DNA from: Patescibacteria group bacterium
Lineage (GTDB): Bacteria > Patescibacteriota > Patescibacteriia > Patescibacteriales > JAQTRU01
Reading direction: 5' to 3'
Assembly (NCBI GenBank): GCA_028716725.1
Contig: JAQUPG010000001.1
Span: 1-47,659 of the forward strand
Length of the DNA stretch: 47,659 bases
Shown here: positions 4,422 to 44,440 of the stretch, in pieces
How positions within the stretch are numbered: the first letter of the stretch is position 1
Layout of the letters: each line of letters begins with the position of its first letter
Position numbers and translations under genes: made by a program
Notes under the pieces: model-generated
What the model was told of the DNA's origin: nothing
Database searches by the model: none
What the model saw: only the letters and a program-made list of their open reading frames with translations

Positions 4422-5774
4422 ATGATTTTATTAAAGAAAGCCGCCCTCTTTATTTTTTTTGCCCTTTTATTCCTCTCCTTTGCCAAGAGCGCTGCGGCCA
4501 GCCAGGTTAGTTCCCCGACCATTATTCAATTAGGGGATAAAAGAGGCCAGGAATTTTCCCGCCAGCTTTTTATAAAAGGTTTAACTCCGGCCAACACCGA
4601 AGTTTTAGTTTATATCGACGGGGTTTATGCCGATTTTGCCAAAGTGGGGAGCGAAGGAACGGCCAGCGACAGTTTTTATTATGAGCATCCGACGGCCTTG
4701 GCCGGGGGAAATGAAATAATGCTTATTGCCCGGGATAAAACTTCTTTGGTTTTATCTCCGCCGGTGGAAATTAAATATATAATCCCCCCCTTGCCGGCTC
4801 CGACTTTAATAAGCCCGGCCTCCGGGAAGATAATAGGCGAGCCCAAGCCCTATATAACCGGTTTAGTAAGTAATTGGAGTTTTGCCCATGTCTATATTGA
4901 CGGGGTTTACAACGGGCGGACAAAAATTTTGTCCCATGAGTCGGGCACGGCCAATTTTGCCTATAAGCCATTTTTGGATTTGGAGGTTGGTTTGCATAAA
5001 GTCTGGGCAATAGCCGAAGACGATTCAGGCCGAAAAAGCGGGGTTTCTAACATTTTGGAGTTTTTAGTTCAAAAACCGATGCCGGCTCCGACTTTGTTTT
5101 CTCCGGTAGTAAATAGCCGCACTAAATATAATCAGCCTTTCATTGTCGGTTTGTCTAAAAATGATTCTTTCATAAAAGTTTTTATTGATAATGAGTTGAA
5201 TGGCCAGTTTGAGGTGGACAATCATTCTTCCGGCACGGCCAATTTCGCTTTTAAGCCTCCGGTTTTGGCCAGAGGAAACCATTCCGTCTACGCCACAGCT
5301 ACTGATAATCGCGGTAAAGAAAGCCGGCGGTCAAATACGGTTTATTTCTCGGTGCGCCAGCCGGTTATTAGCAAGGGAGCCGGAGAAGAAAAGGGCGGAT
5401 TAATAGGCAAGATTGAAGAGCCGGTTTCCGGAAGCGGGCAGGAATTGCCGCTTTCCATTTCTCCGACCGGAGATATAGAAAGGGGGAAAAGCATTTCCGG
5501 AGAGGAAACTGCCGGCGTGGGCAGCCGAATAACGGGTGAAGAAAAAAAAACGGCTGACTTAATTGATGAAAGCGAACAAGCGCAGGGGAAATTAGGCGTT
5601 AATTTAATTGTATTTATTGTTTTTATATTAGGCGTAATTGGCTGGATATTCTGGGTAAACAGGGAGTTAGTAAAGGAACAGCGGGCGGGCGAGAAAAGCC
5701 AGGAAGATTTTTTTTCCGAGGGGAAAAAAGAAGATAATTCTTCCGATAATTCAGGAGAAAATAAGTTGTTTTAA
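4422..5774 (+). CDS. Cell-surface protein with three Ig-like repeats and a C-terminal membrane anchor
   Basis: This 450-residue protein has a signal peptide (about 1-27, ending SAAAS). Three beta-rich repeats of about 90-100 residues follow, at about 30-118, 125-214 and 220-312. Repeats 2 and 3 both open with PAPTL-SP and contain VYIDG/VFIDN and SGTANFA(Y/F)KP; all three share the I-DG-Y core. A low-complexity linker (about 315-385) leads to one membrane helix (about 390-411) and a charged cytoplasmic tail. The plan fits a surface-exposed adhesin or stalk protein. The start is supported by an AAGGAGG site 12 nt upstream. No partner is evident; the next gene has its own promoter after a terminator. 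Confidence 0.75.
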   Translation: MILLKKAALFIFFALLFLSFAKSAAASQVSSPTIIQLGDKRGQEFSRQLFIKGLTPANTEVLVYIDGVYADFAKVGSEGTASDSFYYEHPTALAGGNEIMLIARDKTSLVLSPPVEIKYIIPPLPAPTLISPASGKIIGEPKPYITGLVSNWSFAHVYIDGVYNGRTKILSHESGTANFAYKPFLDLEVGLHKVWAIAEDDSGRKSGVSNILEFLVQKPMPAPTLFSPVVNSRTKYNQPFIVGLSKNDSFIKVFIDNELNGQFEVDNHSSGTANFAFKPPVLARGNHSVYATATDNRGKESRRSNTVYFSVRQPVISKGAGEEKGGLIGKIEEPVSGSGQELPLSISPTGDIERGKSISGEETAGVGSRITGEEKKTADLIDESEQAQGKLGVNLIVFIVFILGVIGWIFWVNRELVKEQRAGEKSQEDFFSEGKKEDNSSDNSGENKLF

Positions 5775-5925: not shown

Positions 5926-6008
5926 TTATATATTTTGGTGTCGTGCCTTTTTACTGCAGGGCATAAAGACAGGATAACTAGGATAGGCAGTGACAGGCCC
6001 CTTCTTTT

Positions 6009-6042
6009 AATCCCGCCCCTAACCAGGGGCGGGATTATTTTG
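6009..6042 (+). terminator. Rho-independent terminator
   Basis: AATCCCGCCCCT (6009-6020) and AGGGGCGGGATT (6025-6036) form a perfect 12-bp stem with an AACC loop, followed by ATTTTGTT. It shields the downstream module from upstream reading. Confidence 0.85.
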
Positions 6043-6081
6043 TTAAATTTTAAGAAATATGGTAAAATATAGGAAATGTTG
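6038..6081 (+). repeat. 44-bp promoter segment, copy 1
   Basis: This segment is identical to 8632-8675. It contains the extended -10 TGGTAAAAT (6060-6068) and follows directly after a GC-rich terminator in both places. It marks the left edge of the duplicated lipoprotein/FN3 module. Confidence 0.85.
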
Positions 6082-6158
6082 GTAACCATCCTATGGTTTA
6101 TCAAATATAATATAAATAGCAAATCAAAAGTGTTAATAGTCTAATAATTCAAAAATAT

Positions 6159-6542
6159 ATGCCCAATAAAAAATTTCTTTTATCATTTCTCTTCCTGCCT
6201 TTTTTGATTTTTGGTTTGGTTGGTTGCGGTAAAAAACAGCCAGCAGATACGGGTATTTTGCCAGAGGGCAAAAGCCAGGAAGACCAGCCTGCGCAAAGAG
6301 GTTATTTGCAATCTGATACGGGAGAGGGGAATATTGAGGAGAATACCGGGGCCATAAAGGAGATTCCTAAAAATAAAGAAGATCTTAAAAAATATTTAGA
6401 GGATTTAGAGAAAGATTCTGACAAAATAGACATAAATGCTGAGGAGGAAGACGCAGTGATTGACGATTCGGGAATTGATGACAGTGATGTTAATATAGAA
6501 GAAGATAATGATGTTGACGATAGCGATATTGACGCCCTTTAA
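6159..6542 (+). CDS. Small acidic lipoprotein (module copy 1)
   Basis: This 127-residue protein has a lipoprotein signal: positive MPNKK, a hydrophobic stretch, and the lipobox LVGC (Cys at about 23). The mature part is very acidic and probably disordered, ending in runs of Asp and Glu with the terminal DDSDIDAL. The paralogue at 8721 ends in SDIDSL and shares the middle segment E(I)PK(N/S)KEDIKK-LE-LEKD. No known domain is seen. It would be attached to the outer face of the membrane. The next gene begins 44 bp later and is duplicated with it, so the two probably act together. Confidence 0.75.
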   Translation: MPNKKFLLSFLFLPFLIFGLVGCGKKQPADTGILPEGKSQEDQPAQRGYLQSDTGEGNIEENTGAIKEIPKNKEDLKKYLEDLEKDSDKIDINAEEEDAVIDDSGIDDSDVNIEEDNDVDDSDIDAL

Positions 6543-6586
6543 GATTTATAATAAAAGAGATTTTGATAGATATTTAAAATAAAAAT

Positions 6587-8545
6587 ATGAATTTTTTTAA
6601 ATTTTTATTTATTATTGGATTTTTTTTCCTCGCCTCCCCCCTCCTGATGGCGGAAGCGGCGGCGCCTGCCAAACCCTCGGCTGCATGCGATAATAGCGCG
6701 GCTACACGAAGCTCTATAAAAGTGACCTGGGCCGCGGTTACCGGTGTTTCATCTTACGGATATAAAATCGGAAGCGATGGAGTTGTGGCCAGTACAACTA
6801 CAACCTCGGTCAGCCTAGATAATTTAGAGTCTGGTCAGGGATATAATATTAATATTCAAGCTTGTAGCGCCAGCGAGTGTTCTGGTTTTGCTGTAATTAA
6901 TTGTTTGACTAATCCGGCTAAACCGGAGTTAACTTTTTCAAAAACTTCAGCTTCCATTATTTTGGAATGGAGCCGTATTGACGGGGCAAGTGTTTATCAG
7001 ATTGGCTATAAAAAGGATGGCGAAGAGGCTTATACTTATGAAGAAATTGCTAACAAATTTTTTCCTGGAGCATATACGATCAAAAATCTTGCTTCCAATA
7101 CTTTATATAATGTCAAAGTTCAGGCGTGTAATGCCAACAAAAAAGATAATGATGGCAATAAGGAGTATGACGAGGGATGTTCTGATTTTATCCCTCAAAA
7201 GATTACTACTACCAAAGAGCAGGGAATTGAGGATTTAAGGAATGATTATGAAAAGAAAAATTTAAGAATGCAGAAGACTTTAAACGGATATAAGAGTTAT
7301 ATGGAGAAAAGCGGGGAATTAGAGGAGGCAACGCGTAATGATTTTACCAGCGAAGTTGAATCGATTTCGCAATCATTAGCGTCAGATTTAACTTATGTTA
7401 AATCTGAAACAAATATAGATAATATAAACGGCAAATTATCCACCCTAGATTCTACTTTTAAAGTTCAGGTTGAGTTATTAAAATATAAACTTAAAATTTA
7501 TAAAAAGTGCGATGGATACTATACAAAGTTTAAAGATTATAAATTTAAGGTGGAAAACTTTTCACAAATCCCCGGAGACGCAAAAGGTAATTTTAACGAC
7601 AGCAATGGGCATATAGATAAAGCTATAGACCACTATAGGGTCAGTTACGAAAGGGCAGTTTTATCCAATAAGTTACCAGTGACAAATTCGGTTAGCAATT
7701 TAGTAATAATAAAGAGTTTATATAATGACTTAGGCAAAGACGGCCAGTATAAATTAACCAAACTAATTTATACTTCTTTGTATTACGTAAATAAAGTAAA
7801 TGAAAAATTAGTTAAATTCAAAGAATATTCAGATAGTACGAACAAAAAATATTTAAGCGGAGTTTTTACAGATACAGCCATAAAGACGGCTTATGATAAA
7901 ATAATAGATGATTTTATTATTTATTATAAAGGATATGTAGGAGCAAAAAGTTGGAATGATTTCGCTGCGGTTTCTAATGATAATAGTTTTTTAAAAAAAG
8001 ACGGTAGATATAAAAGAGCAGCCAAAATATTAAAAGGTTTAAGTAACATTAATTCCATAATTGCCAAGGCCGAGAAATACAAAAGTGAAATTGACGGTTA
8101 CGGCGGGGTTACTTCCAGCATAAAGGGAAAGGCGGATGAATTGGAAAATAATGTAATAATGTGGTTACGGTACGGCCAGCTTTCATTAGGCAAAAGAATT
8201 ATTAATTTAGATGAAGATTCGGATAAAATCTATAAAGAAATAAAAAGTTATTTCGTTCATAAAATTTTTTATTATCTTTATAGCGGGTCTAAATCATTGA
8301 ATAAACTGAATATCAATATAAATAATATCGAAAAAGTCATAGAAGTTATAGGAAGTTGTCCTGAGGCAACGGGGAATATAAATTCTGCTAAAGGTAAAGT
8401 TGCTGATGCTTCAGGAAAGTTAGAAAATATCAATTACGATAATCTTGATTCAGCCAAAGAAAAATATTCGGAATTTAAAAATTTCTATAAGGAGGCCTTA
8501 AATTACTATAAAACGGCAATTTCTGAGTCTAAAAAATGTTTATAA
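6587..8545 (+). CDS. Secreted FN3-like and helical protein (module copy 1)
   Basis: This 652-residue protein has a signal peptide (about 1-25, ending AEAAA) and two fibronectin type III-like domains (about 27-108 and 110-206). Both have the VTWA / LEWSRIDGASVYQIGYKK and YNVKVQACNA strands. A long helical region (about 212-652) carries segments such as DYEKKNLRMQKTL and KLKIYKKCDGYY. It ends in SESKKCL with a conserved terminal cysteine. No C-terminal membrane anchor is visible, so it is probably secreted or held by a partner. The 692-residue protein at 9113 is a clear paralogue along its whole length. The helical part matches no family I know. The function is unknown; FN3 plus helical rods suggests adhesion or scaffolding. 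Confidence 0.75.
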   Translation: MNFFKFLFIIGFFFLASPLLMAEAAAPAKPSAACDNSAATRSSIKVTWAAVTGVSSYGYKIGSDGVVASTTTTSVSLDNLESGQGYNINIQACSASECSGFAVINCLTNPAKPELTFSKTSASIILEWSRIDGASVYQIGYKKDGEEAYTYEEIANKFFPGAYTIKNLASNTLYNVKVQACNANKKDNDGNKEYDEGCSDFIPQKITTTKEQGIEDLRNDYEKKNLRMQKTLNGYKSYMEKSGELEEATRNDFTSEVESISQSLASDLTYVKSETNIDNINGKLSTLDSTFKVQVELLKYKLKIYKKCDGYYTKFKDYKFKVENFSQIPGDAKGNFNDSNGHIDKAIDHYRVSYERAVLSNKLPVTNSVSNLVIIKSLYNDLGKDGQYKLTKLIYTSLYYVNKVNEKLVKFKEYSDSTNKKYLSGVFTDTAIKTAYDKIIDDFIIYYKGYVGAKSWNDFAAVSNDNSFLKKDGRYKRAAKILKGLSNINSIIAKAEKYKSEIDGYGGVTSSIKGKADELENNVIMWLRYGQLSLGKRIINLDEDSDKIYKEIKSYFVHKIFYYLYSGSKSLNKLNININNIEKVIEVIGSCPEATGNINSAKGKVADASGKLENINYDNLDSAKEKYSEFKNFYKEALNYYKTAISESKKCL

Positions 8546-8597
8546 ATTTTAATAAGATTAATTGTCTTAGAAAATTTTTGTGGTTTAAACTTATAAC

Positions 8598-8636
8598 AAA
8601 ACTCCGCCCTTTAGAGAAGGGCGGAGTTTTGTTTTG
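8598..8636 (+). terminator. Rho-independent terminator
   Basis: AAAACTCCGCCCTT (8598-8611) and its exact complement (8617-8630) form a 14-bp stem, followed by GTTTTG. It ends module copy 1 and directly precedes the second promoter copy. Confidence 0.88.
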
Positions 8637-8675
8637 TTAAATTTTAAGAAATATGGTAAAATATAGGAAATGTTG
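8632..8675 (+). repeat. 44-bp promoter segment, copy 2
   Basis: Identical to 6038-6081, with the extended -10 TGGTAAAAT at 8654-8662. The perfect match contrasts with the clear divergence of the genes it drives. This suggests either selection on the promoter or recent gene conversion. Confidence 0.85.
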
Positions 8676-8720
8676 ATAAGCAGATTGGGGCGGGGAATAT
8701 TAATCATAAAGACAGCAGAT

Positions 8721-9098
8721 ATGGCCAAGAAAAGATTTTTTTTACCAATGTTTCTTCTTTTATTATTGCCTTTTATTCTGGCCGGCTGTTTTGAAAAAAA
8801 AGAAGCAGATACGGATATTTGGTCAGGCGATAATGTTTTAGATCAAGAAGAAAATGCTCCCGGCGGGAGACTGCAGCCAGACACAAGCGAAAGGGAAATT
8901 AAGGATATAGGGGAAATCCCCAAGAGCAAAGAGGATATTAAAAAGCTGCTGGAGAGTTTGGAGAAAGACGGAGGGGAATCGGATTTAGATATTGACGAGA
9001 AAACTTTGGAAGTCGACGATTCCGGTCCAGAAGAAAGCGATGTTATTACCGAACCGGAAGATGAGGATATTGACGTTTCCGATATTGACAGCCTTTAA
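8721..9098 (+). CDS. Small acidic lipoprotein (module copy 2)
   Basis: This 125-residue protein starts at the ATG at 8721 rather than at the in-frame ATG at 8670. The 8721 start gives a proper lipoprotein signal (MAKKR, hydrophobic stretch, lipobox ILAGC) that lines up with the copy at 6159, whereas 8670 overlaps the promoter repeat. The mature part is acidic, with the shared motif EIPKSKEDIKKLLESLEKD and a Glu/Asp-rich end closing in SDIDSL. It is followed 14 bp later by its FN3 partner. The function is unknown. Confidence 0.75.
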   Translation: MAKKRFFLPMFLLLLLPFILAGCFEKKEADTDIWSGDNVLDQEENAPGGRLQPDTSEREIKDIGEIPKSKEDIKKLLESLEKDGGESDLDIDEKTLEVDDSGPEESDVITEPEDEDIDVSDIDSL

Positions 9099-9112
9099 CT
9101 ATTTTTTTAGAT

Positions 9113-11191
9113 ATGACTAGAAGAAAAATATTTTTTGTTATTTTGCCTTTTTTATTTTTTCTTCCTTTTTTAGTTGAGGCTCGTATTAACTATAGCCCGA
9201 ACTTAAGAGCAAACGATATAATTACTTCGGATACCTTGGGAATAAATTGGTATGCGACCAGGAACGAGCAATATGGTATATATCTTAAAAAAGAAGGAAC
9301 CTATGAGTACGCTTTTGTTATGGCCACGGGCACGCCGCCGAATTTAACTCTGCCGATTGTTTATTATAAGTCAAATTTGGATGCAGGCACTCTTTATAGT
9401 TTTAAAGTTAAGGCCTGCGATGCGGAATATGCCGATTCTATGGATTGCTTTGCCTCGGAATCTAAATGTTTAGAAACGGTGGAATGCTTATTTTCCGACC
9501 CCCTATCCTTAACCACCTATCCGGGAAAACCTTCATTGGATTATGAAAAATCCGCCACTTTAGTTAACTTATCCTGGACGGCGGTAAAGGGAGCAACTTT
9601 ATACCAGATCGGGTATAAAAAAGCGATAGAAGATGAATATGGTTACAGGGAAACGTCCCAGAGGGAATATGCGGTGAGCGGGCTAGTCCCTGATACCGAC
9701 TATAATTTTAAAATTCAGGCTTGCGGTAATGGGGTGCAGGACACAGATCTCAATAGAGAATATGACAGAGGTTGCTCGGGGTTTGGCCGGGTTATTTCCG
9801 TAAAAACTTTGAAAGAGCAGACTATAGTTGAGTTGGAGGGAAATTATGAAAAAAAGAATTCAAGATTGCAGAAGACATTAACCGGTTACCTTACCTCTAT
9901 TAATAAGTATGAAAATTTGGCTTCGGCCACTCGTTCCGATTTTATAAATGAAATTACTAATGACGGCAAGAATGGAGTTTTGGATTTATTAGCGGGGGAA
10001 CTGGCAAGCGTAAAAACAGAGACAAACGGGAGCGTTATAGAGGCTAAAATAGCGGACTTGGACGCCACTAGAAGGCCCCAGCTTGAGATATTAAGCTATA
10101 AATTGAAAATTTTAAAAAAATGCGATGGATATTATAAAAAGTTTTCTGATTGGCGGGCTAAAGTTGAAAGTTTTCTGGAAATTCCCGCAACCGCCAAAGA
10201 TGATTTTCTAAAGGCCGGGGGGTATATGGATAAAGTGAAAGAAAATTATCAGAATAATTATGAAAACGCTATTTTGGCCGGTACGGGGAGACTGCCTGTC
10301 GCCACTACTAATTTAACCGGCAGCCTTGCTTTTATTAAGACTTTGTATGAAAATATAAATAAGGATAAATCCTACAAGACGGCCGAAGTAGTATATAAAA
10401 CTTTTTATAACGTAAGTAAAATTAATACAAAACTTGAATCCTTTAAGGAATATGCGCATTTTGACAATAAAAAATGGCTAGTCAAAGCATTCAGTGGTTA
10501 TTACCCGTCAGGGGGAGAGAATGTATTATTCGCGGATAAATACGAAGAAATGCTTGATGATCTTAAGAACTACTATCAGGGTTATGTTGCTAACAAAAGG
10601 TGGGATTCTTATGATATAGTCTACGGCGATTATAAGCATCTAAGGGGGAATGACAAACTTAAAAAAGCCGTGACTATAGCGAACAGCCTTAAAAAAATTA
10701 ATTCCATTTTATTAAAGACAAACGATTATTATAATAAAATTAACGGTTTCAGTAAGATTTCCTCGGAAATTAAAACAAAGGCAGGAAGCTTTACCACAAC
10801 TATAAGTGATAAGTTAGTGTTTAACAGCAGCAACCCTTTTACCAAGAAAGTTCTTGATAACCCGGATAAAGCAACAATAGTGGAAATAAATGGATACTTC
10901 GGCCATAAAACTTTTGGTTATTTTTATAAAGGGGTCAAGGTAATAAATGATTTTAATATTAAAATAGAAAATTTAAAAAAAATAGTAACCGCAATCGGCT
11001 CCTGCCCGGCCGCGACCGGCAATATAAATCAAGCTGAGGCAAAAAGAAATTTGGCCGAAGCGAAATTAAAAGAATTCGCGGTTGATAATTTGGAAATAAC
11101 AAAATTAAAATATTCGGAATTTGCGAATTTTTATCAAGAAACTTTAAATTATTATAAAACGGCGATTACCGAAGCTCAGAAATGCTTATAA
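9113..11191 (+). CDS. Secreted FN3-like and helical protein (module copy 2)
   Basis: This 692-residue protein has a signal peptide (about 1-22). Two FN3-like domains follow (about 25-135 and 137-235), with cysteines in strand positions, SWTAVKGATLYQIGYKK, and NFKIQACG. The long helical region carries YEKKNSRLQKTLTGY, YKLKILKKCDGYYKKF and IGSCPAATGNINQA. It ends in TEAQKCL, matching the SESKKCL end of copy 1. Compared with copy 1 it has extra residues in the first FN3 domain and in the helical part. The terminal cysteine, the internal KKCDGYY cysteine and the GSCP cysteine are conserved in both. The gene ends 89 bp before the pilin array. Confidence 0.75.
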   Translation: MTRRKIFFVILPFLFFLPFLVEARINYSPNLRANDIITSDTLGINWYATRNEQYGIYLKKEGTYEYAFVMATGTPPNLTLPIVYYKSNLDAGTLYSFKVKACDAEYADSMDCFASESKCLETVECLFSDPLSLTTYPGKPSLDYEKSATLVNLSWTAVKGATLYQIGYKKAIEDEYGYRETSQREYAVSGLVPDTDYNFKIQACGNGVQDTDLNREYDRGCSGFGRVISVKTLKEQTIVELEGNYEKKNSRLQKTLTGYLTSINKYENLASATRSDFINEITNDGKNGVLDLLAGELASVKTETNGSVIEAKIADLDATRRPQLEILSYKLKILKKCDGYYKKFSDWRAKVESFLEIPATAKDDFLKAGGYMDKVKENYQNNYENAILAGTGRLPVATTNLTGSLAFIKTLYENINKDKSYKTAEVVYKTFYNVSKINTKLESFKEYAHFDNKKWLVKAFSGYYPSGGENVLFADKYEEMLDDLKNYYQGYVANKRWDSYDIVYGDYKHLRGNDKLKKAVTIANSLKKINSILLKTNDYYNKINGFSKISSEIKTKAGSFTTTISDKLVFNSSNPFTKKVLDNPDKATIVEINGYFGHKTFGYFYKGVKVINDFNIKIENLKKIVTAIGSCPAATGNINQAEAKRNLAEAKLKEFAVDNLEITKLKYSEFANFYQETLNYYKTAITEAQKCL

Positions 11192-11280
11192 ATATATTAT
11201 TAATTAAAATAAACAACTCTTGGTGATATTTTGTAATTTATGTTTACAATATTAGCCGGGATTTAGAGGGGAGGTGAAAT

Positions 11281-11694
11281 ATGAGAAAAAACCTTTATAA
11301 AAATCTGTTGGCATCGGCCATGATTATTTTAATTATGGTTCCGGCCTTCGCCCTGGCTTTGCCGGTGCAGGCGCAAGATGATTCCGATACTTTGCTCTGG
11401 GGAGGGACGCAAGGAGATGTTGAAAACACTATCGGTTTGGGAGCTAAAGACCCAAGAGAAATAGCAGCCAGCATTATTAACATCGCTTTGGGATTTTTAG
11501 GCATTGTTGCCGTGATAATAATCCTTTTAGGCGGGTTTAAATGGATGACAGCCGGCGGCAACGAAGACAAGGTGGAGGAAGCCAAGAAATTAATTTTTGC
11601 CGGTATAATTGGCTTAATTATTATTATGGCGGCTTGGGGCATTGCCAAGTTCGTCGTTAACGCGTTATACGAAAAGACTGGCGCGACTGGCTAA
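11281..11694 (+). CDS. Type IV secretion pilin-like protein 1 of 7
   Basis: This 137-residue protein has a signal peptide (about 1-31, PVQA) and a short polar mature end. Two membrane helices lie at about 65-84 and 106-126, separated by the family loop FKWMTAGGNEDKVEEAKKL. This matches the T4SS_pilin family (TrbC/VirB2-like), whose members assemble conjugation-type pili or channels. It has the best ribosome binding site of the cluster (GGGGAGGTGAAAT directly before the ATG). A bank of hairpins separates it from the other six genes, which suggests it is made in greater amount, as expected for a major subunit. Assembly genes are not in the window. Confidence 0.8.
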   Translation: MRKNLYKNLLASAMIILIMVPAFALALPVQAQDDSDTLLWGGTQGDVENTIGLGAKDPREIAASIINIALGFLGIVAVIIILLGGFKWMTAGGNEDKVEEAKKLIFAGIIGLIIIMAAWGIAKFVVNALYEKTGATG

Positions 11695-11695
11695 C

Positions 11696-11721
11696 AATTC
11701 TTAAAACCGGTTTTAAGAATT
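11696..11721. terminator. Perfect 26-bp palindrome after pilin 1
   Basis: The half AATTCTTAAAACC is followed by its exact complement with no loop, centred at 11708/11709. It begins two bases after the stop codon of pilin gene 1. It could act as a cruciform or as part of a terminator. Confidence 0.7.
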
Positions 11722-11723
11722 AG

Positions 11724-11801
11724 CCCCGCACCTTTTAGGCGATATTTTTTAGTCAAATATCTCGTATATAGAGATATTTGGTCGCCTAAAAAGGTGCGGG
11801 G
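11724..11801. repeat. CCCCGCACCTT hairpin, copy 2
   Basis: CCCCGCACCTTTTAGGCGA (11724-11742) pairs with 11782-11801 (one bulge). An inner stem AAATATCTC/GAGATATTT (11755-11763 and 11771-11779) extends it. The result is a long near-continuous hairpin downstream of pilin gene 1. Confidence 0.75.
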
Positions 11802-11831
11802 TAGGGTGGGTTCTCCGCCCGAGGCGGGGAT

Positions 11832-11873
11832 CCACTTCTCTGGGCATAATATTTTTGTGCCCGGAGAAGGTGG
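11832..11873. repeat. Hairpin upstream of pilin 2
   Basis: CCACTTCTCTGGGCA (11832-11846) pairs with TGCCCGGAGAAGGTGG (11858-11873), with one bulge. It lies 39 bp before the pilin 2 start and may be a leader structure or the last part of the terminator bank. Confidence 0.65.
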
Positions 11874-11911
11874 AAAATTAGGAGGAAAATTAAGAAATTA
11901 AAATTTTCAAT

Positions 11912-12319
11912 ATGAAAAAAATTTCTATTATAATTTTTGTCGCGGTTTTATTTTTTACGGTTTTTGCCGGGCAAATTTGCCTGACCCAGGCGGCAGATGA
12001 CAATGCCACGGGCCTGGAAAAGGCAGCCGCGGGCTTAAAGGATACGACCGAGGTAGGATTTGGCAAAGTTCCCACCCAGACTGACGTCCCCAGCCTGATC
12101 GGGAGTCTTATTGGCGCCGGCCTGTCTTTTATCGGGATTTTATTTTTTGTTTTAGTTATTTACGGCGGCTACCTTTGGATGACGGCCAGGGGGAATGAAG
12201 AGCAAGTGGGCACGGCTATTAGTATTGTTACCCAGGCCGCTATTGGCTTAATTATAGTGGCTACCGCTTATTTGATTACCAGGTTCCTTGGGGAAACGAT
12301 CTTAAACAAAGTTTTATAA
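11912..12319 (+). CDS. Type IV secretion pilin-like protein 2 of 7
   Basis: This 135-residue protein has a signal peptide (about 1-27, TQA), helices at about 66-87 and 108-126, and the loop LWMTARGNEEQVGTAISIV between them. The mature N-terminus carries the phrase TEVGFGKVPTQTDVPSLIGSLIG; related phrases appear in pilins 3 and 4. The stop is followed 2 bp later by pilin 3, so genes 2-5 form a tight operon. The weak Shine-Dalgarno GGAGGAAAATTAAG lies about 30 nt upstream, farther than usual. Confidence 0.78.
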   Translation: MKKISIIIFVAVLFFTVFAGQICLTQAADDNATGLEKAAAGLKDTTEVGFGKVPTQTDVPSLIGSLIGAGLSFIGILFFVLVIYGGYLWMTARGNEEQVGTAISIVTQAAIGLIIVATAYLITRFLGETILNKVL

Positions 12320-12321
12320 AA

Positions 12322-12756
12322 ATGACTTTTTTAAACGGTAAAAAATTAATAAGTTTGGTTGTGATATCCTTCTTTATTTTTAATTTTCTTTTGGCTGCGG
12401 GCGCGATAAATGCCGAAGAACCGTTTTTGAGCGGTTTAGAAAACACCGGCAAGGGCGTGGGCTATGAAACCGGGGCCGACGTTCCGGCCCAAAACAAAAT
12501 TGCTTCTTTCATCGGCGATGTTATCGGAGCCGTTATGGTCTTTATCGGCGTGGCTTTTATGGTTTTAATCTGGATGGGAGCGCTTGATATTGTCGGTGCC
12601 GGCGGCAATGACGAAACGGTTAAAAAAGGAAAGGATAAAATAAAAAACGGCGCTATCGGCGTTTTAGTCGTTTTCGCCGCTTATATATTCGCCTATATTG
12701 TTTTAGGCATGGCCAGCGGAAATTTCGGCGTTGGGTTTAATATTTTTAAGATTTAA
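12322..12756 (+). CDS. Type IV secretion pilin-like protein 3 of 7
   Basis: This 144-residue protein has a signal peptide (about 1-30) and two helices at about 66-88 and 112-134. Its loop is the most divergent of the array: WMGALDIVGAGGNDETVKKGKDKIKNG, where the GGN and lysine-rich parts remain but the WMxA and GN elements are split by an insertion. The mature end carries ENTGKGVGYETGADVP. It starts 2 bp after pilin 2 and ends 3 bp before pilin 4. A minor or specialised subunit is possible, but this is inference. Confidence 0.75.
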   Translation: MTFLNGKKLISLVVISFFIFNFLLAAGAINAEEPFLSGLENTGKGVGYETGADVPAQNKIASFIGDVIGAVMVFIGVAFMVLIWMGALDIVGAGGNDETVKKGKDKIKNGAIGVLVVFAAYIFAYIVLGMASGNFGVGFNIFKI

Positions 12757-12759
12757 AAT

Positions 12760-13209
12760 ATGGATAAGGCAGGCTTAGAAAAAATGATTGTTTTTTTCTT
12801 TGTTTTCTTCCTTGTTTTTGCTTTGGCTTTAAATATAAGCCGGGCGCAGACCGAAGAAGCTAAAACTGAAGTTCCTAACATCGGCAGCTGGGGGAGTAAT
12901 TTAGATAAAGGAGTTTCAGAAACGGGCGTCTACAGCACGCAGACAGTGCCGGGAGGAGTAACGGTAACAATTGCCAAGTATATCGGCGGAGTTCTTTTTC
13001 TCGCCCCCTTCTTCGGCTTTTTGTTTATGGTGAGGATTGTGATAGCCGGTTATGAATGGATGACGGCCGCTGGCAATGTTGAAAAAATCGAATTGGCGCA
13101 AAAAAGAATCAGGAACGCGGTTATTGGCATTGTAATTTTTACCGCCTTATATTTCTTTGCTTATTTCTTCGTCAGGGCTTTTGCCGGCCTGGAAGGGTAC
13201 GCAATTTAA
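12760..13209 (+). CDS. Type IV secretion pilin-like protein 4 of 7
   Basis: This 149-residue protein has a signal peptide (about 1-29, SRA) and a mature end containing GVSETGVYSTQTVPGG. Helices lie at about 70-93 and 113-136, around the loop YEWMTAAGNVEKIELAQKRI. The first helix is unusual in holding LAPFFGFLFMVRIVIAG, with a proline and an arginine, so it may pack differently from its relatives. It is tightly spaced with its neighbours. Confidence 0.77.
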   Translation: MDKAGLEKMIVFFFVFFLVFALALNISRAQTEEAKTEVPNIGSWGSNLDKGVSETGVYSTQTVPGGVTVTIAKYIGGVLFLAPFFGFLFMVRIVIAGYEWMTAAGNVEKIELAQKRIRNAVIGIVIFTALYFFAYFFVRAFAGLEGYAI

Positions 13210-13219
13210 TTTAAATTAT

Positions 13220-13660
13220 ATGGCCCATAAGACATTTTTTAAAAAAATTATTTTTATCACACTGGCTGTTTTAATAAGCTTATTCGCCCTAAGCGCGGTT
13301 CAGGCCGCGGGCGATCCCCCCACTTCTTCGGTTGGTTCTCTATTGAAAGAAGCGGCTGAATCGGCTAAATACGAAACCGCAAAAGTGGAAAGCGGGGATA
13401 TTAACACCTCCACGGTTGCCGGCGGAGTTGTAAGAATTTTTCTTTCTATTCTGGGAATTATTTTTATAGTTTTAATGATTTACGCCGGTTATCTTTGGAT
13501 GATGGCCCGGGGCAATGAGGAGCAGGTCAACAAGGCCAAAGACTTAATCAGGGATGCGGTCATCGGACTGATAATTGTCGTGGCCGCTTACGCCGTTACT
13601 TATTTTATTTTATATATGCTGGCCCGGGGTTATATCCAGTCAGAAGTTACCGGACTTTAA
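13220..13660 (+). CDS. Type IV secretion pilin-like protein 5 of 7
   Basis: This 146-residue protein starts at the ATG at 13220. The frame extends upstream to 13157, but that part overlaps pilin 4 and would bury the signal peptide behind 21 unrelated residues. The signal peptide (about 1-31, VQAA) is followed by helices at about 73-96 and 115-137. The loop LWMMARGNEEQVNKAKDLI is almost the same as in pilin 6 (LWMMARGNEDQLTKAKELI), so these two are the closest pair in the array. Confidence 0.78.
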   Translation: MAHKTFFKKIIFITLAVLISLFALSAVQAAGDPPTSSVGSLLKEAAESAKYETAKVESGDINTSTVAGGVVRIFLSILGIIFIVLMIYAGYLWMMARGNEEQVNKAKDLIRDAVIGLIIVVAAYAVTYFILYMLARGYIQSEVTGL

Positions 13661-13669
13661 TAAACATAT

Positions 13670-14179
13670 ATGTTAAAAATTATAAAGCAAATATCCATTT
13701 TAATTCTGCTGGTTTTAATTTTAATTTTTCCGTACTTTGTTTTTGGAGCCGAGACTTATAAAGGCCCGACTTTGAAAGCCGGATTACAAGGATTCGGGTC
13801 GGCTAGCGGTTATTTAACCAACGTTACCCAGACTACGGCTGCAGAAATCGCCGGCACGGCGGTTAGTATTTTTTTAAGCATTCTGGGCGTTATTTTCATT
13901 GTCCTAATGCTTTACGGCGGTTATTTGTGGATGATGGCCCGGGGCAATGAAGATCAATTAACCAAAGCCAAAGAGTTAATCCAGGCCGCGATTATCGGTT
14001 TAATAATTACGGTTTCGGCTTATGCTCTTAGCTTCTTTATCTTTAACCGGATAACCAGGCAGGCTTTAACCGCGCCGGGTGCAGGCGGCGGAGCGGGTGC
14101 GGGTTCAGGCGGAGGTAGTGGGTGTCAATACGGCACGAATCCTGACGGCAGTTGCAAGCCACAGCCAGGTGGCTCCTAA
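13670..14179 (+). CDS. Type IV secretion pilin-like protein 6 of 7, with Gly-rich tail
   Basis: This 169-residue protein has a signal peptide (about 1-25), helices at about 61-86 and 105-127, and the loop LWMMARGNEDQLTKAKELI. After the second helix it carries a tail not found in pilins 1-5: a run of Gly/Ala/Ser followed by a small region with two cysteines (SGCQYGTNPDGSCKPQ). The two cysteines, 11 residues apart, could form a disulfide loop outside the cell. The tail may mark a tip or adhesive subunit; that is inference. Confidence 0.77.
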   Translation: MLKIIKQISILILLVLILIFPYFVFGAETYKGPTLKAGLQGFGSASGYLTNVTQTTAAEIAGTAVSIFLSILGVIFIVLMLYGGYLWMMARGNEDQLTKAKELIQAAIIGLIITVSAYALSFFIFNRITRQALTAPGAGGGAGAGSGGGSGCQYGTNPDGSCKPQPGGS

Positions 14180-14200
14180 ATATAATTAAATTATGATTTT

Positions 14201-14635
14201 ATGAATTTTAGAAAAATAAAGTATTTTGTAATGTTTTTAGTATTGTCAGTTTTGAATTTTAGAGTCGCTGATTTGGCCCTATCCCAAAGTTTCGGTCCCC
14301 AGGATCCGGGGCAAACAGAAGCTTTCCAGAGAAAGGCTGGTTTCGCCGCAGTCACGGAATCGTCTTTTGCGGGAATTATAGCCGTGGCCATTCAGGCCTT
14401 TTTAGGCCTCCTGGGCGTTATTTTTTTAGTGCTGATGATTACGGCCGGATATAAGTGGATGACCGCGTCCGGCAACGAAGAAAAAATGACGGAAGCGAAA
14501 GAAACAATCTGGCGGGCAGTGATTGGCTTAATTATTACGGTTTCGGCTTATGCCATTACTTATTTTGTGTTTAACAGTTTGAATTGGTTCGGTGGAGGCG
14601 GGGGCGCTCAAGGGGGAAGTCCGAGATACCCATAA
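14201..14635 (+). CDS. Type IV secretion pilin-like protein 7 of 7
   Basis: This 144-residue protein has a signal peptide (about 1-29), helices at about 61-83 and 104-126, and the loop YKWMTASGNEEKMTEAKETI. The C-terminal tail is short and glycine-rich (FGGGGGAQGG), a reduced form of the pilin 6 tail. It is the last gene of the array and is followed by a bidirectional terminator at 14656-14688. Confidence 0.78.
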   Translation: MNFRKIKYFVMFLVLSVLNFRVADLALSQSFGPQDPGQTEAFQRKAGFAAVTESSFAGIIAVAIQAFLGLLGVIFLVLMITAGYKWMTASGNEEKMTEAKETIWRAVIGLIITVSAYAITYFVFNSLNWFGGGGGAQGGSPRYP

Positions 14636-14655
14636 ATTATCAAATAATAAAAAAG

Positions 14656-14688
14656 AAAGGCGCCTCTCTTGAATGAAGCGCCTTTTTT
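14656..14688. terminator. Bidirectional terminator between the pilin array and the repeat lipoprotein
   Basis: AAAGGCGC (14656-14663) and GCGCCTTT (14678-14685) form the stem, with A and T tracts on either side. It can serve the plus-strand pilin genes and the minus-strand gene at 14707. Confidence 0.8.
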
Positions 14689-14706
14689 GATGTTCCCATT
14701 TGGGCA

Positions 14707-15603
14707 TTATAGGTCACAGTAAGTATACCAATGGACCGATTTGCCCATATAGCTTTGGGTCTGTAATCCGACCGTGAATTTCCACGATCCGATTTTCTGA
14801 CCGTGGTAAAATGATTCAGCCACATAATCCCCCGGTATCAAATAATCTTCAACCCAGAAGCCGGGGGGGAGCAGGTAGCTTTTTGTTTCCGGTCCTCTTA
14901 TTATGGTGTTTACGGTGGCATATTCGTCTGTGTTGGCGACTATGCCTTTATAACCCATAATCGGATCAATCAGAGTCGATGATTGCCCCGCCCTTTCAGA
15001 ATCGATAACAATCATTTCCGCTGGGGAATCCAGGTGTGCGAGCCGGCCTAACTCTTTGAGATTGATGGTGACGGTTTTTATCGAGGTATCCGGGGGCGCG
15101 AGTTGGCTCAACTCTTCAAGATTGATAGTGATTTTTTCCCCTGGAGGATCCAGGTATGCGAGTTGGCTCAACTCTTCAAGATTGATAGCGGCTGTTTTCC
15201 CCGAAGAATTCAGGTGTGCGAGCCGGTTTAACTCTTTGAGATTGATAGTGACGGTTTTTATCGAAGAATCCAGGGGTGCGAGCTGACTCAACTTCGCAAG
15301 ATTAATAATGATTTTTCTCCCCGAAGAATCCAGGTGTGCGAATCGGCTCAACTCCGCGAGATTAATAGTGGCGGAAGAAGAGTTGATTTTTTCTGCCCGT
15401 GATTTCGATTTTGGGGAATCGGTTGTTGCCTCCATTTTATTAATGGCCATTACTTGCTGTGTGATTCTTGCCGCCTCTTCGGACGAGGCAAGCCCATACC
15501 AGTCTCCTTTCCTGAATCCCGAGGTGTTGCCGAAATAAGCACTGCAGCCCGCGAGATAGAGGAGAGCGACGGAGAGCGCAAGAATAACCGTGAGCTTTTT
15601 CAT
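14707..15603 (-). CDS. Lipoprotein with six 20-residue tandem repeats
   Basis: This 298-residue protein has a lipoprotein signal with lipobox YLAGC (Cys 20). A short region (21-78) is followed by exactly six repeats of 20 residues (79-198) of the form TINLxELSxLAxLDSSxKxV. Hydrophobic residues recur at fixed places. A unique C-terminal part (199-298) contains IRGPETKSYLLPPGFWVEDY and IGSWKFTV. The start is well supported: AAGGAGG sits just upstream, and a strong minus-strand promoter lies at 15688-15716. I recognise no family. The repeats look like a repeating beta-alpha unit or an expanded minisatellite. Promoter quality and codon style differ from neighbours, which hints at transfer. Confidence 0.75.
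   Translation of the reverse strand: MKKLTVILALSVALLYLAGCSAYFGNTSGFRKGDWYGLASSEEAARITQQVMAINKMEATTDSPKSKSRAEKINSSSATINLAELSRFAHLDSSGRKIIINLAKLSQLAPLDSSIKTVTINLKELNRLAHLNSSGKTAAINLEELSQLAYLDPPGEKITINLEELSQLAPPDTSIKTVTINLKELGRLAHLDSPAEMIVIDSERAGQSSTLIDPIMGYKGIVANTDEYATVNTIIRGPETKSYLLPPGFWVEDYLIPGDYVAESFYHGQKIGSWKFTVGLQTQSYMGKSVHWYTYCDL
15010..15369 (-). repeat. Six 60-bp in-frame tandem repeats
   Basis: The DNA period is exactly 60 bp. Alternate units are most alike (units 2 and 5 share the SIKTV ending; units 3 and 6 share NLKELxRLAH), which suggests growth by duplication of a larger multi-unit block. Confidence 0.85.
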
Positions 15604-43255: not shown

Positions 43256-44440
43256 ATGCAAAAAATAACAAAAGAGTTTAGAATTAAACCCTCCAGTATA
43301 ACAGAAGATAGTTTGAAAGAATTAGGAAAAGTACTTGAAAAACAAATAAAGGAAAGAAGGGATGTGGAAGAAAAAGGAGGGGAAAGGAGGTCAAATTGCG
43401 GAGTTTTGTATACTATTAGATCTGAGGATGAAAGTATTGAATATGTTTCAATGGATGATTTATTGAATTCTAGCAGTAAACCCAACAAAATAAAATCAAT
43501 TTCTTTTAGGGTAAATCATTATGATGATGATTATGTGGATATTTATTTTAGGATAGGAAAATATTCTGCAGGTGAGAAGGTAGAAATATCCAGTAAAAAC
43601 GAAGGGGAGATGTTGGCGACAGAAAAAAGTTTAAAAATAATTTTTGAAAAGTATTCCCTGAGTTATGGTTGGTTTTTAAATAAATGCTATGAAATAAAGG
43701 TTAATGTTTTGGCTGTATTAGTAAGTTTGTTGGCCGTTTTTTTAATTGTAAAAACACTTACTATTTTTTATCCGCAAATACAGTATAGCAATACGATAAA
43801 TTTTGCCTTGTATTATTTTATTTTTTTTGCTTTGTATATTGTGAATTTAGTTATTTTAAAATTATACTTTCCTTTTTATATGATAGATTTGTCCGGAAAT
43901 TCGAGCAGAAAGATCTTCTTAAAGTTTTTTTCTTTTATTTTTACTATAATAATAATACCATCGATCCCTTATGGTTATAATTTATTGAAAGAGGAACAAA
44001 TTATCAAAGAATTTTCTGATGGCACAGCTATAAATGTTATTGAACATTTAGATAGCGGAAAGAATATTTGGGATGTTTCGGGAAATGTTTTTGGTTATAT
44101 TTCACCTTATTCCGTTAATTACGCCTTTTTAAATCCATATAAAAATATTTCTGTTAAAGACAAGAAGGAAGATGGCTATTTTGAAGTTCAAAAAATTAAA
44201 GATGAGTTATTTTTAATTGGTTCTATTAACGATGAGGATTATAACAAGGCAATTGAAAAAGATGAAATAAAAATAGTTCTCCACTCAAATTTGACTGACT
44301 ATTTTAAACATGAAATCGCATTAAAAATAACTGAAAGTAATTTCTTAAATATAAGAGAAATTGAAATTAATGATAAGAAGATTTATGTTTTAGATATGAA
44401 ATCACACGGTTTTGTAATTAAAAATATTAAAACTCACTAA
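43256..44440 (+). CDS. Membrane protein with soluble ends, unknown
   Basis: This 394-residue protein. Residues 1-150 are soluble and hydrophilic (strands such as KITKEFRIKPSSI and VNHYDDDYVDIYFRIG). Three helices lie at about 155-178, 185-208 and 222-240. A C-terminal soluble part (about 245-394) contains KEFSDGTAINVIEHLDSG. AT-rich codon use is stronger than in neighbours. No family is recognised. The N-terminal part looks beta-rich and could be a sensor. Possible transfer, based on composition only. Confidence 0.6.
   Translation: MQKITKEFRIKPSSITEDSLKELGKVLEKQIKERRDVEEKGGERRSNCGVLYTIRSEDESIEYVSMDDLLNSSSKPNKIKSISFRVNHYDDDYVDIYFRIGKYSAGEKVEISSKNEGEMLATEKSLKIIFEKYSLSYGWFLNKCYEIKVNVLAVLVSLLAVFLIVKTLTIFYPQIQYSNTINFALYYFIFFALYIVNLVILKLYFPFYMIDLSGNSSRKIFLKFFSFIFTIIIIPSIPYGYNLLKEEQIIKEFSDGTAINVIEHLDSGKNIWDVSGNVFGYISPYSVNYAFLNPYKNISVKDKKEDGYFEVQKIKDELFLIGSINDEDYNKAIEKDEIKIVLHSNLTDYFKHEIALKITESNFLNIREIEINDKKIYVLDMKSHGFVIKNIKTH

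Follow-up and report, generated by a model that had tools for sequence, protein, structure and literature searches.

Contact between Patescibacteria and their hosts is poorly understood. In a cultured Patescibacterium, a fibronectin-III (FN3) surface protein and the pilins of a type IV secretion system (T4SS) are essential for epibiotic growth (PMC10633639), and FN3-bearing giant proteins have been proposed as host-recognition proteins in another member of the group (PMC13059738). Genes for VirB2-like pilins are already described as arrays in Patescibacteria: a survey of 3,035 genomes (PMC12102498) lists 441 arrays of 2-11 genes and reports no PrgB-like adhesin. VirB5, a further T4SS component, is a pilus-tip subunit (PMC12857230). 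Here we analyze a window of 47,659 nucleotides (positions 1 to 47,659, forward strand, of contig JAQUPG010000001.1, assembly GCA_028716725.1) from the 1.08-Mb genome of a Patescibacteria group bacterium, G000, in which two gene pairs, each encoding a small acidic lipoprotein and a large FN3/helical protein, lie beside a pilin array.

Like the FN3 surface protein SEML1_0890 of Southlakia epibionticum (PMC10633639), which is exported and has a proposed role in host contact, the large proteins carry a signal for export and FN3 domains; they differ, by description rather than by sequence comparison, in that their helical region has no relatives and each is paired with a lipoprotein of its own. The seven genes downstream are a VirB2-like array of the kind surveyed, (PMC12102498), and the arrays outside the genus that we examined lack the pair. 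A helical extracytoplasmic protein and a small lipoprotein beside VirB2-like genes also recall VirB5 and VirB7, from which the pair is distinguished by the lack of a profile match, by the extra FN3 domains and by its restriction to one genus. Finally, a large surface protein near T4SS-type genes, with a possible role in contact, resembles the PrgB-type conjugation adhesins of monoderms; unlike these, it has no LPxTG anchor, shares no domain that we found, and comes with a lipoprotein instead. The finding is narrow, being confined to one genus. As a genus-specific, fast-diverging, duplicated unit beside VirB2-like pilins, the pair offers a concrete candidate for cell recognition particular to one lineage, and its helical region forms a family without known relatives.

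Two diverged copies of one gene pair

The two pairs occupy positions 6159-8545 (pair A) and 8721-11191 (pair B), and the array follows pair B:

lipoA, 6159..6542, + strand: acidic lipoprotein of 127 aa, lipobox LVGC, Cys23
fnA, 6587..8545, + strand: Sec-exported protein of 652 aa, two FN3 domains, then a helical region of ~440 residues
lipoB, 8721..9098, + strand: acidic lipoprotein of 125 aa, lipobox LAGC
fnB, 9113..11191, + strand: exported protein of 692 aa, FN3, then a helical region
Pilin array, 11281..14635, + strand: seven genes of PF18895 (T4SS_pilin, VirB2-like), downstream of pair B

The start of lipoB was set at 8721 by fit to a lipoprotein signal (the longest ORF would begin at 8670), and the genes are separated by 44 bp in pair A and 14 bp in pair B. 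An initial annotation, made from the sequence alone, had described a duplicated pair with a common order and end-to-end resemblance, and the ORFs and alignments agree. The products of fnA and fnB align over nearly their full length (39% identity over 665 columns, 423 bits, E 6e-144, BLASTP), those of lipoA and lipoB are 48% identical (E 1e-19), and the large protein of copy A is 41-42% identical to that of copy B and to those of the relatives G001 (MAG STB_181, JAQTSG010000003.1) and G002 alike. The motifs quoted in that annotation (EIPK-KED, SDID-L, KKCDGYY, GSCP and KKCL) are all present and common to both copies. The GC3 of fnA (0.30) is below that of most neighbouring genes.

The lipoproteins are acidic, with a mature pI of ~4 (about 4.05 for lipoA); lipoA has a central EIPKNKEDLKKYLEDLEK segment and a C-terminal SDIDAL, and lipoB has EIPKSKEDIKKLLESLEK and SDIDSL. 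Counting the relatives, the four lipoproteins carry lipoboxes LVGC, LAGC, FTGC and LTGC, with Cys23 invariant in 4/4. A lipobox cysteine after a hydrophobic N-terminal signal is the pattern of bacterial lipoproteins, and lipidation is predicted; the large proteins have a type I signal peptide (Sec), in agreement with the first description of the two kinds of protein as lipoprotein and secreted protein.

A promoter segment shared by the pairs

Each pair is preceded by a terminator-like hairpin and a putative promoter:

Terminator-like hairpin upstream of copy A, 6008..6037, + strand: GC-rich, T tail
Promoter segment A, 6038..6081, + strand: extended -10 TATGGTAAAAT, 44 bp identical to segment B
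Terminator-like hairpin between the pairs, 8595..8633, + strand: GC-rich, T tail, 17-bp perfect arms, 5-nt loop
Promoter segment B, 8632..8675, + strand: 44 bp identical to segment A, overlapping the hairpin end

These hairpins, together with the repeat alignment, confirm an arrangement that had been noticed from the sequence. The alignment spans 54 bp at 94% identity (6035-6088 / 8629-8682), within which the 44-bp identical core (6038-6081 / 8632-8675) was counted by eye. A core, AATATGGTAAAATATAGGAAAT, is invariant upstream of all four known pairs, including those of both relatives. The 21-base promoter core occurs at exactly 2 sites in the 1.08-Mb genome, allowing up to 3 mismatches, and its reverse, used as a control, at none. 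G002 has a matching hairpin upstream of its single pair, and the sequence leading into this pair resembles that before copy A.

FN3 domains joined to a helical region of no known family

The FN3 domains (PF00041) are genuine: fnA scores 56.4 bits and fnB 41.3 bits, above the Pfam gathering cut-off of 25, with two stretches in each. In fnB these lie at about residues 24-134 and 135-233 and are followed by the helical region (234-692), whose three-helix C-terminal unit (595-692) is the part best conserved between the copies. Identity between the copies is lowest in the first FN3 domain (24%) and highest in this unit (57%). Beyond the signal peptide we found no strongly hydrophobic segment in the large proteins, and hence no membrane segment; an LPxTG motif with a membrane tail, as in PrgB-type adhesins, is also absent, the C termini being KKCL/KNCL with no hydrophobic tail.

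The helical region, 440-460 residues long, gave no significant match to Pfam, NCBIfam, PADLOC or PDB sequences. Its AlphaFold model, built from three sequences, has a pLDDT of 80 and a pTM of 0.66; a Foldseek search of the region against PDB folds returned nothing at E<=0.001, the best match (0.015) being a de novo designed bundle. With a pLDDT of 68.5 and a pTM of 0.42, the model of the whole protein is of low quality; FN3 matches rank top when it is used with Foldseek, and PHROGs matches are confined to the FN3 domains. The initial impression that the helical part belongs to no known family thus held in both profile and structure searches, and the region is an orphan helical domain in a genus-specific pair that itself falls into the known class of lineage-specific surface proteins.

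Within the helical region, an internal repeat (U3-U4) scores above shuffles, and spacings of about 95 and 192 residues separate the best diagonals. Reversed-sequence controls reach equal or higher scores, however, which leaves a chain of three-helix units as no more than a suggestion. The large protein of G002 has a pI of 6.3 and is not basic; a simple charge match between lipoprotein and large protein is therefore not general.

Occurrence within a single genus

The pair is present in 3/3 genomes of the genus examined, twice in G000 and once each in G001 and G002, giving four known pairs. It is intact in each, with a fixed order, genes 11-44 bp apart, and always directly upstream of the pilin array. 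No pair was found in the rest of the order (108 genomes), in a class sample (~380 genomes, with one weak match of 52 residues and 18.5 bits) or in a phylum sample (~380 genomes), and there was no homologue in GTDB r220 contigs besides G001 itself or in IMG/VR, phages and plasmids. By these searches the pair is genus-specific: the proposed recurrence beside pilin-like genes holds for the genus and fails in the order, class and phylum samples.

Outside the genus, matches to the lipoprotein profile are partial and mainly at the signal end, and none of the 3 loci opened has an FN3 partner beside the match. Within the genus, FN3 proteins do not generally come with a lipoprotein partner: at the 5 loci checked, none of the remaining FN3 genes has an acidic lipoprotein as its immediate neighbour.

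A probably old duplication and fast divergence

Between species, the lipoproteins are 48-58% and the large proteins 52-69% identical, compared with 75-87% for the neighbouring solute-binding protein, RodZ and 3D-domain genes. The three species lie at roughly equal distances from one another in these neighbours, and the pair is more diverged: it evolves faster than its surroundings. In maximum-likelihood trees of four taxa (A, B, G001, G002), copy A falls outside B+G001 for the lipoprotein and the large protein alike, and copy A probably predates the split of G000 and G001. A recent duplication within this species is disfavoured by the AU test (p 0.035 for the concatenation, 0.079 and 0.18 for the genes taken singly), which rejects it only in the concatenation; with four taxa and a long branch, this is weak evidence. 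The dN/dS of the pair is well below 1 (about 0.11-0.18, with dS saturated), from which we argue that both copies have been kept as functional proteins; both look to be under selection.

A small acidic protein with a large partner, joint rapid divergence and duplication would fit an effector-immunity pair, in which the secreted helical protein hits neighbouring bacteria, the acidic lipoprotein protects the producer, and two pairs provide two specificities. We regard this as highly improbable, however, given that there is no toxin, pore-forming or PADLOC match, that no stretch beyond the signal peptide reaches the hydropathy of a membrane segment, and that the C terminus, far from being a variable end domain, is where conservation peaks.

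A variable slot beside an order-wide pilin array

As initially annotated, the pairs directly precede a seven-gene pilin array, in which 6/7 genes exceed the PF18895 cut-off of 26.6 bits and the seventh scores 25.9. Genes of this family occur in 60/60 related genomes. At the loci inspected, arrays of about 6-8 pilin genes are usual and recur in the order with a 3D-domain gene beyond; in several families the array follows the set of genes found in this window, namely those for a solute-binding protein, a pilin, a RodZ-like protein, a methyltransferase, a small membrane protein, and YraN or an Ig-like protein. In all three species the variable slot begins at the latter:

Ig-like (Big_13) gene, 4422..5774, + strand: C-terminal hydrophobic segment, upstream edge of the slot

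Between this gene and the array lie two pairs in G000, the pair alone in G002, and a glycosyltransferase, a large membrane protein and the pair in G001; other families have large membrane or glycosyltransferase genes there. Because the array is order-wide and occurs without the pair, we take the pair to be genus-specific cargo in a variable slot, and the array to be a neighbour that does not need it rather than a part of it. The initial annotation is thus upheld for the duplicated unit, the signals, the FN3 domains, the orphan helical part and recurrence in the genus; a necessary tie to the pilin genes finds no support.

This slot bears on two other readings. The pair could be a genus-specific envelope component (a scaffold, or S-layer- or wall-associated) that takes no part in host contact and adjoins the array only incidentally, since envelope genes gather in this slot. 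The array is indeed complete without the pair, and the slot or array flank elsewhere carries a PBP, an M23-LysM peptidase, a glycosyltransferase or large membrane proteins, the PBP or M23-LysM gene flanking the array where the upstream synteny differs. Fast divergence against stable neighbours and a diverged second copy would nevertheless be unusual for a structural housekeeping part, and we consider this reading somewhat unlikely. The position directly upstream of the array in all three species would also suit a complex that is accessory to the VirB2-like pilus, at its tip or base, and belongs to the secretion machine, with the lipoprotein akin to VirB7 and the helical protein to the tip subunit VirB5. 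This is improbable, as the pilin arrays of every other genome examined lack the pair and it has no profile match to VirB5, VirB7 or VirB8. More broadly, T4SS subunit profiles gave no match (E up to 1-5 in Pfam and 0.1 in NCBIfam), a weak test for VirB7, which is without a profile; the signal region matched an EexN-family lipoprotein at E 0.099 (NCBIfam), far below the family cut-off.

Other features of the locus vary as well. The second pilin (11912-12319) is 88% identical to that of G002 and 67% to that of G001, with 60-75% for the other pilins; by these identities the history of the array is mosaic. Between the array and the 3D-domain gene lies a convergent lipoprotein gene (14707-15603, - strand) with 60-nt tandem repeats (15026-15370); many other genomes have a different exported or lipoprotein-like gene at this position, and those tested had no Pfam match. 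At 31-2586 stands a trio conserved in other families of the order: a solute-binding lipoprotein gene, a lone T4SS_pilin gene in the middle, and the gene of a RodZ-like HTH_25 membrane protein.

A candidate complex for cell contact

In favour of one complex per pair, the two genes are kept together in 3/3 members of the genus, have a common promoter core, and yield the same preferred tree. The published findings on FN3 proteins and T4SS pilins in other Patescibacteria (PMC10633639, PMC13059738) lend outside support to a role in cell contact. Our favored explanation, whose probability we place slightly short of even, is that each pair forms a lineage-specific surface adhesin complex for cell contact, the partner lipoprotein holding the FN3 protein at the membrane; pairing and function, including co-transcription, a physical complex, anchoring, surface display and host contact, are what we infer. 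Both proteins would probably be made from one transcript under the dedicated promoter. The large protein would be exported by Sec, its two FN3 domains pointing outward on a rod of bundled helices, and the acidic lipoprotein, anchored by its lipid, would retain it at the membrane. The likeliest contact would be between the lipoprotein's short helix (EIPK-KED-KKLLE-LEK) and acidic DID-L tail and the conserved helical region. The complex, encoded beside the VirB2-like pilus genes, may bring this bacterium, which has a reduced genome and is presumably epibiotic, into contact with a different cell, probably its host, and the second, old and diverged copy may supply an alternative version. A bolder variant, in which the pair caps or docks the VirB2-like pilus, replacing a missing VirB5/PrgB function in the genus and varying host specificity through its diverged copies, appears to us decidedly improbable.

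FN3 proteins and the pilin domain are linked elsewhere too, as on another contig of G000 (C5, locus L078) a 1896-aa protein (7836-13526, - strand) couples a T4SS_pilin domain at its N terminus to TIG, Ig-like and FN3 domains further on. It adjoins a 683-aa pilin + Big_5 protein (13543-15594, - strand), and T4SS_pilin matches in frames of about 830-2180 aa recur across the order. Giant adhesin-like proteins thus seem to use the two-helix pilin domain as their base, an arrangement unmentioned in the passages on fusions that we found in the survey (PMC12102498). Elsewhere in the window, an ORF at 43256-44440 has a GC content of 0.27 (GC3 0.23) against 0.39 for the window and is possibly foreign.
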